Part shown: positions 25,979 to 47,447 of the stretch, one piece after another
How the letters are laid out: each line of letters starts with the position of its first letter
Numbering within the stretch: the first letter of the stretch is position 1
Origin: Limnohabitans sp. Jir72
GTDB lineage: Bacteria; Pseudomonadota; Gammaproteobacteria; Burkholderiales; Burkholderiaceae_C
Assembly: GCF_003063575.1 (NCBI RefSeq)
Contig: NZ_NESC01000004.1
Coordinates: 62,001-126,000 of the forward strand
Reading direction: 5' to 3'
Length of the DNA: 64,000 nucleotides
Translations under genes and position numbers: made by a program
The notes under the pieces: model-generated
Seen by the model: the letters and a program-made list of their open reading frames with translations, nothing else
Told to the model about the DNA's origin: nothing
Databases searched by the model: none

Positions 25979-26042
25979 AGTCTGAAGTTTTTCATGTAGA
26001 CGCCCAGCCTGTAGGCGATGGCGCAAAATCAAGAGGGTGTTT

Positions 26043-26117
26043 GTAGGAGCCCACCCCGTGGGCGATGGGCGTGGCACACGCCCTAGAAAACCATCGCCCA
26101 CAGGGGTGGGCTCCTAC
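26043..26117. repeat. REP-like palindromic element, family 1
   Basis: GTAGGAGCCCACCCC begins the left arm (26043-26068) and CCATCGCCCACAGGGG begins the right arm (26091-26117). The arms are reverse complements over 27 positions except for one missing T. A related half-arm, GTAGACGCCCAGCCTGTAGG, lies at 25996-26015. The same arms recur three times at 45663-46162. It lies between two convergent stop codons, a typical REP location. Confidence 0.85.
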
Positions 26118-26142
26118 GAAATCAGCCCAATCGACCGGCCTG

Positions 26143-45032: not shown

Positions 45033-45500
45033 TCACACCAACCGCCGCGCCGAGATGACGCCGGTGTTCACACCCACCCAGTTCAGCCCCCCGAACAGCC
45101 GGGCGTGTTCGATCTTCACGCAGCGGTTGCTCACCGAATCCAGCCCGGCTTGCCGGGCCAGCGCATCGGCCTCGGGGTTGGCCACGCCCAGCTGCTGCCA
45201 AAAACACCGCGCCCCGATTTGCACCGCTTGTTCGGCAATCGGCAACACGTCTTCGGCGCGGCGAAACACGTCAACCATGTCCACCTTAAAAGGGATGTCG
45301 CCCAGGCTGGCATAACAAGTCTCGCCCAGCACGGGCGTGCCCGCATAGCGCGGGTTCACGGGCACGATCTTGAAGCCATGCGACTGCATGTACTTGGCAG
45401 CGAAATAGCTGGGCCGGTGCCACTCAGCCGACAAGCCCACCACGGCGATGGTGGGGCACGTTTTGAAGATGCGCCGCAGCGCGTGCAAATCGTTGTGCAT
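45033..45500 (-). CDS. CoA-binding domain protein
   Basis: A 155-residue CoA_binding_2 protein of the YccU type. CPTIAVVGLSAEWHRPSYF forms the nucleotide-binding loop, VPVNPRYAGTPVLGETCYAS follows and CVKIEHARLFGGLNW closes the fold. Function in the cell is not established. It has no operon partner. Confidence 0.9.
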   Translation of the reverse strand: MHNDLHALRRIFKTCPTIAVVGLSAEWHRPSYFAAKYMQSHGFKIVPVNPRYAGTPVLGETCYASLGDIPFKVDMVDVFRRAEDVLPIAEQAVQIGARCFWQQLGVANPEADALARQAGLDSVSNRCVKIEHARLFGGLNWVGVNTGVISARRLV

Positions 45501-45567: not shown

Positions 45568-46239
45568 GTAGGAGCCTACAGACGATGGTTCTTATCTTTG
45601 CAGGAGCCCACAGACGATGGTTTTTGTCTGTGTAGGAGCCCACAGGCGTTGTTTTTGTCTGTGTAGGAGCCCACCCCTGTGGGCGATTTCACGCACACCG
45701 CCAAGGCAAGCCATCGCCCACAGGGTGGGCTCCTACAAAAGCCATTGAGCTGAATGTCAACGCGATCAGCGGCGAAGGGGTCGCAGGTTCAATACGTCAC
45801 ATGTCCACTGCGCAGGAGCCCACAGGCGATGGTTCTTATCTTTGCAGGAGCCCACAGACGATGGTTTTTGTCTTTGTAGGAGCCCACCCCTGTGGGCGAT
45901 TTCACGCACACCGCCAAGGCAAGCCATCGCCCACAGGGTGGGCTCCTACAAAAGCCATTGAGCTGAATGTCAACGCGATCAGCGACGAAGGGGTCGCAGG
46001 TTCAATACGTCACATGTCCACTGCGCAGGAGCCCACAGGCGATGGTTCTTATCTTTGCAGGAGCCCACAGACGATGGTTTTTGTCTGTGTAGGAGCCCAC
46101 CCCTGTGGGCGATTTCACGCACACCGCCAAGGCAAGCCATCGCCCACAGGGTGGGCTCCTACAAAAGCCATTGAGCTGAATGTCAACGCGATCAGCTGCG
46201 AAGGGGTCGCAGGTTCAATACGTCACATGTCCACTGCGC
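45568..46239. repeat. Tandem repeat, three ~213-bp units containing REP family 1
   Basis: Three nearly identical units lie head to tail: 45602-45813 (212 bp), 45814-46026 (213 bp) and 46027-46239 (213 bp), after a partial unit from 45568. Each unit holds one to two AGGAGCCCACAGRCGATGG sub-repeats of about 35 bp and a REP family 1 hairpin (45663-45736, 45876-45949, 46089-46162). Each also carries a 25-bp stretch (ending CATGTCCACTGCGC) identical to the last eight codons of the MFS gene. The third unit overlaps the real 3' end of that gene. It fills almost all of the 714-bp gap 45501-46214. Confidence 0.95.
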
Positions 46240-47447
46240 TTCATTTGCCGCGAGGCCCAGGTGGCGCTCAGCGACAGCACCCCGCACACCGCCATCACGC
46301 CCAGGTAGTGGCCGCTGTGGTCAAACACCGCGCCCGCCAACACAGGCCCCAGCAAGTTCCCCAGAGCCGCGCCGCTGTAGAGCGTGCCCACCACGCTGGC
46401 CACCGATTTTCCGCCAAAGTAATCCATGCAAATGGCGGGCAAGAGCGACACGATGGAGCCATAGCTCAGGCCAAACCACAGCGCAAACAGCACCAGCATG
46501 GCCTGCCCGCCTGCCGCGCCCCACAGCACATACGACGCGCCCATGGACAGCTGCATCAGCACCAGCGTTTGCGCCCGGCCAAGTCGGTCGGCCAGCAGGC
46601 CAATGGCAAATCGCCCCACCAGACTGCCCACGCCAATCAAGCCCACCAAACCGACGGCAAAGGCCTCGCCCAGACCCAGGTCACGCGCCGAGGCGGACAC
46701 ATGGGCAAAGGGAATGAACATGACGGGTGAGGCCAGCACGGTGGCCAGGTACAGCCAGCGGAAGGTGGGGCTGCGCAAGGTCTCGCGCAAAGTCAGCCCA
46801 GAGGCCGAGCCGCCCGCACCTGGCACGTCAGCGGCAACGCCGGACGCCGCAGGGGCCCGTCGCAGCAAACCCGCCGCCAACAAGCCCAGCACCAAGACCC
46901 CCAAGGCCAGCAGCTGCATGGCGTCGCGCCAGGGCATGGGGCCAATCGCCATGGCCACCAACACCGGCACCAGCAAAGTGCCCGCGCCCACGCCCGAGCT
47001 GGCAATGCCCCCGGCCAGCCCCCGCCGGGTGGTGAACCAAGGCTGCACGCTGGCAATGGACGGGGTGTAGACCAGTGCGATCCCCAGGCCCACCAGCAAA
47101 CCGTAGCTCACGTACACCGCCAACAAGGAAGACGCCCAGCTGGTGGCCAGCAGGCCCAGCGCAATCAAGGCCATGCCCGCCGAGCACACGAGTCGCGGAC
47201 CGAAGCGGTCAGCCAGCATGCCGCCACCCGCGCCCAGCACAAAGTAAACAAAGCCCGACAGCCCAAAAATCCAGGACACATCGGCCCGCTGCGCCGAGAA
47301 TTCGGCCGCGAACGATTCAAAAAACGCCGCGAACGAATACGACACCCCAAAGATCAGCGCCAGGCACACAAAGGTGGCCCACACCACCACCCAGGCGTAG
47401 GGGGTTTCTTTCATGCGGTCTCCGTATTTTTTGAAGGTGTTGGACAT
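46215..47447 (-). CDS. MFS transporter
   Basis: Major facilitator protein of 410 residues with twelve predicted helices. YAWVVVWATFVCLALIFGVS is the first helix. MLADRFGPRLVCSAGMALIA is the loop 2-3 motif, and GRFAIGLLADRLGRAQTLV is the matching loop in the second half. It resembles the oxalate/formate- and monocarboxylate-type MFS group. MSNTFKK at 47447 has GAGGG upstream and is preferred to the 57-codon longer ORF; MKETPYAW at 47414 is an alternative. The last eight codons are duplicated downstream in the tandem repeat. Confidence 0.88.
   Translation of the reverse strand: MSNTFKKYGDRMKETPYAWVVVWATFVCLALIFGVSYSFAAFFESFAAEFSAQRADVSWIFGLSGFVYFVLGAGGGMLADRFGPRLVCSAGMALIALGLLATSWASSLLAVYVSYGLLVGLGIALVYTPSIASVQPWFTTRRGLAGGIASSGVGAGTLLVPVLVAMAIGPMPWRDAMQLLALGVLVLGLLAAGLLRRAPAASGVAADVPGAGGSASGLTLRETLRSPTFRWLYLATVLASPVMFIPFAHVSASARDLGLGEAFAVGLVGLIGVGSLVGRFAIGLLADRLGRAQTLVLMQLSMGASYVLWGAAGGQAMLVLFALWFGLSYGSIVSLLPAICMDYFGGKSVASVVGTLYSGAALGNLLGPVLAGAVFDHSGHYLGVMAVCGVLSLSATWASRQMKRSGHVTY

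Follow-up and report, generated by a model that had tools for sequence, protein, structure and literature searches.

A tandem REPIN cluster carrying a copied gene end in Limnohabitans sp. Jir72

Tandem clusters of REPINs that include flanking DNA are known in Pseudomonas and other bacteria, REPINs being non-autonomous inverted pairs of repetitive extragenic palindromic (REP) elements from a family associated with REP-associated tyrosine transposases (RAYTs). Such clusters have been described in Pseudomonas fluorescens SBW25, where some adjoin RAYT genes (Bertels and Rainey 2011, PMC3116915, Fig. S7). Here we describe a head-to-tail array of three REPIN-containing blocks between an MFS transporter gene and a CoA-binding gene of Limnohabitans sp. 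Jir72, located in a 64,000-nucleotide stretch of contig NZ_NESC01000004.1 (the window). The array belongs to the known tandem REPIN cluster type; that it has taken in a gene end, and that another species has a parallel array, are useful details that do not establish a new category. We consider it highly probable that the cluster was formed by local duplication, followed by expansion and homogenisation.

Compared with the SBW25 clusters, the Limnohabitans array is found in a betaproteobacterium and has a different REP sequence, its unit includes coding sequence from a gene's 3′ end as well as degenerate REP sub-repeats, and orthologous single-copy, empty and apparently independently duplicated states are available across species. 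It differs from the GTAG-tagged REP clusters (PMC3733652) in that the captured flank is coding; the text of that paper makes no mention of Limnohabitans, Comamonad- or Acidovorax. Alternating inverted REPs, tandem copies and a Y1/HUH single-strand transposase are shared with the bacterial interspersed mosaic elements of E. coli and the TnpA_REP REPtron (PMC8266576), whereas the Limnohabitans REP sequence and RAYT differ from their E. coli counterparts, and recognition or cleavage by the RAYT is putative. A literature search pairing Limnohabitans with repetitive extragenic palindromic elements found no paper in the collection searched.

Anatomy of the array

The array occupies window positions 45570-46239 and is composed of blocks of 244, 213 and 213 bp. 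Tandem Repeats Finder (TRF) reports a period of 213 with 3.0 copies and a 96% match at 45600-46239, and the score of 1203 is far higher than that of any other array in the window. In each block, 32-bp sub-repeats are followed by one complete REPIN, a 3′ flank of ~50 bp, and the stop and last seven codons of the MFS gene. At the natural joints, 45813/45814 and 46026/46027, AGGAGCC follows directly on the copied MFS end (...CACTGCGC); past 46239 the genuine MFS gene runs on with TTCATTTG. Over the 153 bp of REPIN and tail there are two mismatches between blocks 1 and 2, one between blocks 1 and 3, and three between blocks 2 and 3. The blocks are 98-99% identical, and every block has private differences. 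The 25-bp MFS 3′ end (TCAATACGTCACATGTCCACTGCGC) has just three exact matches in the window, at 45789, 46002 and 46215, and only the copy at 46215 belongs to the MFS gene. The sub-repeats are degenerate REPs with a GTAGGAGCCCAC head (GCAG in some) in which alignment shows the palindrome to be lost, and within the genome they are confined to this locus. They number two or three per block, the extra 31-bp sub-repeat accounting for the greater length of block 1.

The hairpin in each block is a complete REPIN, consisting of two GTAG-headed REPs that face each other. Its arms (TGTAGGAGCCCACCC / GGGTGGGCTCCTACA) have perfect outer arms of 15-17 bp that are 46 nt apart, and all six REPIN arms of the array open with GTAG, the conserved tetranucleotide that marks the base of a REP palindrome. 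The segment 45866-45960 is predicted to fold into a single long hairpin (−32 kcal/mol and z −7.9 as DNA; −60 kcal/mol and z −8.1 as RNA). The REP head TGTAGGAGCCCAC has 18 matches in the window at no more than two mismatches, compared with 1.1 expected in shuffled sequence. The REPINs stand head-to-tail with a common 3′ flank and gene end, as is typical of tandem REPIN clusters. Elsewhere in the window this family is represented by a further, solitary REPIN, at 26042-26118, with heads at 26042 (+) and 26106 (−).

An earlier sequence-only reading of the window had proposed three near-identical 213-bp units, each with several sub-repeats of ~35 bp, one REP hairpin and 25 bp of the MFS gene end. 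The three near-identical units are confirmed, and the third does contain the genuine end of the minus-strand MFS gene, as had been stated. The unit length is correct for blocks 2 and 3 but not for block 1, the sub-repeats measure 31-32 bp, and what had been taken for a single REP hairpin is the inverted pair. The 25-bp gene end is exact and occurs three times, although it is made up of seven codons, the stop and a single extra base rather than eight codons and the stop.

Table 1. Positions of the array components and neighbouring genes in the window
Feature	Position	Strand	Evidence
Block 1: three sub-repeats, REPIN, tail, MFS 3′-end copy (244 bp)	45570..45813		Sequence, repeats, block comparison
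Block 2 (213 bp)	45814..46026		Left joint ...CACTGCGC-AGGAGCC at 45813/45814
Block 3 (213 bp), holds genuine MFS end	46027..46239		Meets unique gene sequence at 46239/46240
Three GTAG-headed degenerate REP sub-repeats, block 1	45568..45662 (45568-45599, 45600-45631, 45632-45662)	+	TRF, alignment
Two sub-repeats, block 2	45812..45875	+	TRF, block comparison, alignment
Two sub-repeats, block 3	46025..46088	+	TRF, block comparison, alignment
REPIN 1: REP GTAGGAGCCCACCCCTGTGGGCGAT..., inverted REP ...ATCGCCCACAGGGTGGGCTCCTAC	45662..45737		Inverted repeats, head matches
REPIN 2	45875..45950		Inverted repeats, head matches, fold
REPIN 3	46088..46163		Inverted repeats, head matches
MFS 3′-end pseudo-copy (stop + 7 codons + 1 nt)	45789..45813	-	Exact match
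MFS 3′-end pseudo-copy	46002..46026	-	Exact match
MFS transporter gene, upstream, genuine 3′ end inside block 3	46215..47447	-	PF07690 MFS_1, E 1.5e-37
CoA_binding_2 gene, downstream, co-directional with MFS gene	45033..45500	-	PF13380, E 3.6e-38

A role as intrinsic terminator was rejected, as no U-run terminator follows the REPINs. The lone terminator-like match sits in a sub-repeat and not in a REPIN, and is at chance level (1 versus 0.7 in shuffles). An Rfam search of the array gave nothing above the gathering score, just sub-threshold chance matches, and a search of a plasmid collection with the array gave no match. A 309-residue plus-strand open reading frame (45801-46730) lies antisense to the MFS gene and was not taken as a gene, a judgement made without a family search; a 213-bp period, being divisible by 3, keeps the frame open through the array.

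The same locus across Limnohabitans

The MFS and CoA-binding neighbours are both conserved through much of the genus. In most species the two genes are separated by just ~20 bp with no REPIN, while a single REPIN is found in four genomes (G048, G026, G017 and G007), that of G048 being without a sub-repeat. Limnohabitans sp. T6-5 (G054; NZ_NERV01000001.1) has one sub-repeat, one REPIN and the gene end in single copy. The G054 and G048 orthologues show that the duplicated flank is local DNA and, together with the ~20-bp spacers of most species, support the proposal of the sequence-only reading that the array arose by duplication of the gene-end/REP segment. Its suggestion of recent expansion or homogenisation is also in agreement with the data, since the blocks are more alike than the flanking genes of Jir72 (genome G000) and G054, which are ~88% identical; homogenisation may contribute. 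In four further genomes (G044, G046, WS1 and PBBC1) the locus holds another GTAG-type REP pair. The pair in Limnohabitans sp. WS1 (L083) appears to be duplicated relative to that of PBBC1 (L085), so that the site may have undergone a third duplication.

Genome G059 has its own array at the same site, composed of three 238-bp units that each extend from CoA codon 8-9 across the CoA start and the REPIN into the MFS end. Copy number at the locus thus differs between species (0, 1 or 3), whereas the sequence-only reading had proposed variation between strains. The REPIN loops and the left boundaries differ between the G000 and G059 arrays. Their right breakpoints coincide in the MFS alignment, falling before TTCATTTG (for G059 this is deduced from G026, since the terminal G059 copy has gained a different gene end), and the junction is GC-AG in both arrays. 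In the CoA-gene tree, single-copy G026 is sister to G059 and single-copy G048 is sister to G000 (support 0.96 and 0.86). The MFS-gene tree strongly disagrees with the CoA-gene tree and, therefore, the locus recombines between species, which weakens any ordering of events. The flanking genes (L036-L048, L082-L110) show interspecies recombination with breakpoints near the REPIN, including the foreign MFS end on the terminal G059 copy. Each extra G059 unit also fuses the first CoA codons in frame to the last MFS codons. The resulting 15-codon open frame (MHNDLHALLSGLAQY) occurs twice upstream of the real CoA gene, on the minus strand of L078 (G059:C10) with starts at locus positions 2177 and 1939, and is probably accidental.

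We favour, without certainty, two independent duplications in G000 and G059. The alternative is a shared ancestral array that predated the G000/G059 split, with part of the G000 unit later deleted and copies lost in other species. This would explain the coincident right breakpoints, the GCAG microhomology could convert a G059-like unit into the G000 unit, and contraction leaves no scar. However, the closest relatives by CoA gene are single-copy, the loops and left boundaries differ as noted above, and the gene-end copies in G000 match the end of its own MFS gene exactly and are therefore recent. We regard an ancestral array as unlikely.

The REP family, its transposases and other arrays

The Jir72 genome is a 3.69-Mb draft of 45 contigs, and was surveyed for arrays in stretches around listed REP sites and in systematic 20-kb samples. 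At no more than one mismatch it contains 425 REP heads (12 for a reversed control) and 227 full REPs (0 for the control). There are four Y1_Tnp proteins, three of which exceed the cut-off of 80 of NF047646 (REP-associated tyrosine transposase), with the fourth at 79.7. One RAYT, at C1:261522-261965, is flanked by REPINs (together L065 9316-10157; G000:C1 ~261.3-262.2 kb), with eight REP heads within 600 bp, and this cognate RAYT scores 138.9 bits on the same model. Tandem REPIN arrays lie within a few kilobases of it on both sides. Among 60 genomes of the genus, REPs are more numerous where a relative of the C1 RAYT with at least 50% identity is present (Mann-Whitney p ~9e-6, with shared ancestry ignored); G007 has 87 REPs and no such relative.

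This REP family habitually forms tandem arrays. Those near the listed REP sites have periods of 34, 48, 57, 77, 82, 116, 120, 124, 152 and 155 bp, and each has its own local spacer. The systematic 864-kb sample contains nine arrays with a period of at least 25, and six of these have a REP-like match. One of the six, a 264-bp repeat of 12 copies (L261 12233-15400; G000:C1), was discounted due to its single loose REP match and is probably repetitive coding sequence. Arrays hold 48 of the 120 REP heads in this sample (40%, loose pattern), and 45 of the 79 heads found with a stricter pattern in its first 464 kb. Most other arrays start and stop in a REPIN or a REP half (REPIN-spacer-REPIN), as expected for recombination between neighbouring REPINs, whereas the window array terminates inside a gene. 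First breakpoints are unreadable in most of them because a REPIN or REP is present at both ends.

Elsewhere in G000, a 144-bp unit is repeated 4.6 times at a locus that holds one REPIN in G010 and in G028. A second G059 array, also at a different locus, has three 181-bp units and a single-copy orthologue in G007. Its junctions carry an 11-bp filler (ATTGTTAACGA) that is absent from the G007 orthologue, and 7 of the 11 filler bases are also present immediately to the left of the REPIN, a pattern that template switching would produce. Tandem arrays in G059 are also formed by a second palindromic family, with GTAGGTCGG as its head and periods of 99-129 bp (L250 7014-7900 and 11916-12141, L256 7063-7923, L257 16768-17560).

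Origin and significance

We propose that a REPIN settled in the spacer between the MFS and CoA genes, and that the G000 lineage then gained a head-to-tail duplication of a segment made up of sub-repeats, REPIN, 3′ flank and the final 25 bp of the MFS gene, the first duplication being joined with 0-2 bp of homology. The long hairpin would have stalled replication or repair synthesis and so led to template switching, which we consider somewhat probable as the source of the first copy because of the 0-2-bp junction homology here and the filler in the second G059 array. Once two copies existed, the array would have expanded through homologous recombination among its 213-bp copies or through slippage, and unequal exchange or gene conversion would have kept the three copies near-identical. 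Several points weigh against this account. The array's own junctions show neither filler nor long homology, and the first duplication is one that we infer, the event itself being unobserved. Traceless contraction to one copy may also have removed an older shared array from relatives, and the exact copy number depends on the assembler, though the blocks carry private differences.

A different route to the duplication would be driven by the RAYT, with the transposase nicking single-stranded DNA at C/T or C/A sites that flank the REPIN and the excised segment being rejoined beside itself. TnpA_REP cleaves at CT in E. coli and Stenotrophomonas and at CT and CA in Marinomonas, with some sites distant (PMC8266576). 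Within the MFS gene, the right breakpoint falls on a C-T step (GC-TTCAT) at the position shared by G000 and, as deduced from G026, G059, the joined left sides begin ...GC-AG in both, and the genome encodes RAYTs, one of them REPIN-flanked. Against this, the match was spotted afterwards and fits just two arrays at one locus, where the GC microhomology leaves the breakpoint ambiguous by 2 bp. Moreover, the boundaries are 76 bp from the REPIN and not at its foot, and the 181-bp G059 array breaks at T-G on the right, with filler, when compared with G007. A general C-T rule was sought in the other arrays, and this 181-bp array, the one further case with an orthologue, failed to fit. RAYT-driven duplication is thus quite improbable here, and we are decidedly doubtful of the broader proposal that REPINs recurrently seed local tandem duplication with preferred breakpoints, a RAYT having nicked the same C-T in two species.

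The array leaves the MFS and CoA-binding proteins unchanged. It would add three strong hairpins to any transcript that extends from the MFS to the CoA gene, and any effect, judged from the sequence, would most likely be to alter mRNA stability or read-through modestly. The presence of very stable RNA hairpins between two co-directional genes, and the roles of REPs in gene expression and mRNA stability in other bacteria (PMC8266576, PMC3733652), would suit a selected regulatory device in which tandem hairpins were amplified to insulate or stabilise the MFS transcript. This is very unlikely given that no intrinsic terminator follows the REPINs, that most species have no REPIN here, and that similar arrays are present at many unrelated loci of the genome; the function of the array is probably negligible or modest. 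An assembly artefact, with one unit or another number of units at the true locus, is hardly credible even for a 45-contig draft, since every block carries differences of its own, block 1 is longer by one sub-repeat, comparable arrays of other periods occur elsewhere in G000 and in an independent assembly, and short-read assemblers usually collapse such repeats rather than multiply them.

Local duplication followed by expansion and homogenisation bears on how REPIN clusters arise. Ordered clusters have been taken to indicate 'a second mechanism' (Bertels and Rainey, PMC3116915). The empty, single-copy and apparently independently duplicated states of this locus in Limnohabitans let the duplication step and its breakpoints be read directly, and other Limnohabitans arrays with single-copy relatives add to the cases that can be read in this way. 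REPIN expansion can copy pieces of neighbouring genes. If RAYT nicking were nevertheless responsible, tandem clusters would be footprints of RAYT activity, and would occasionally give rise to new gene-end fusions.
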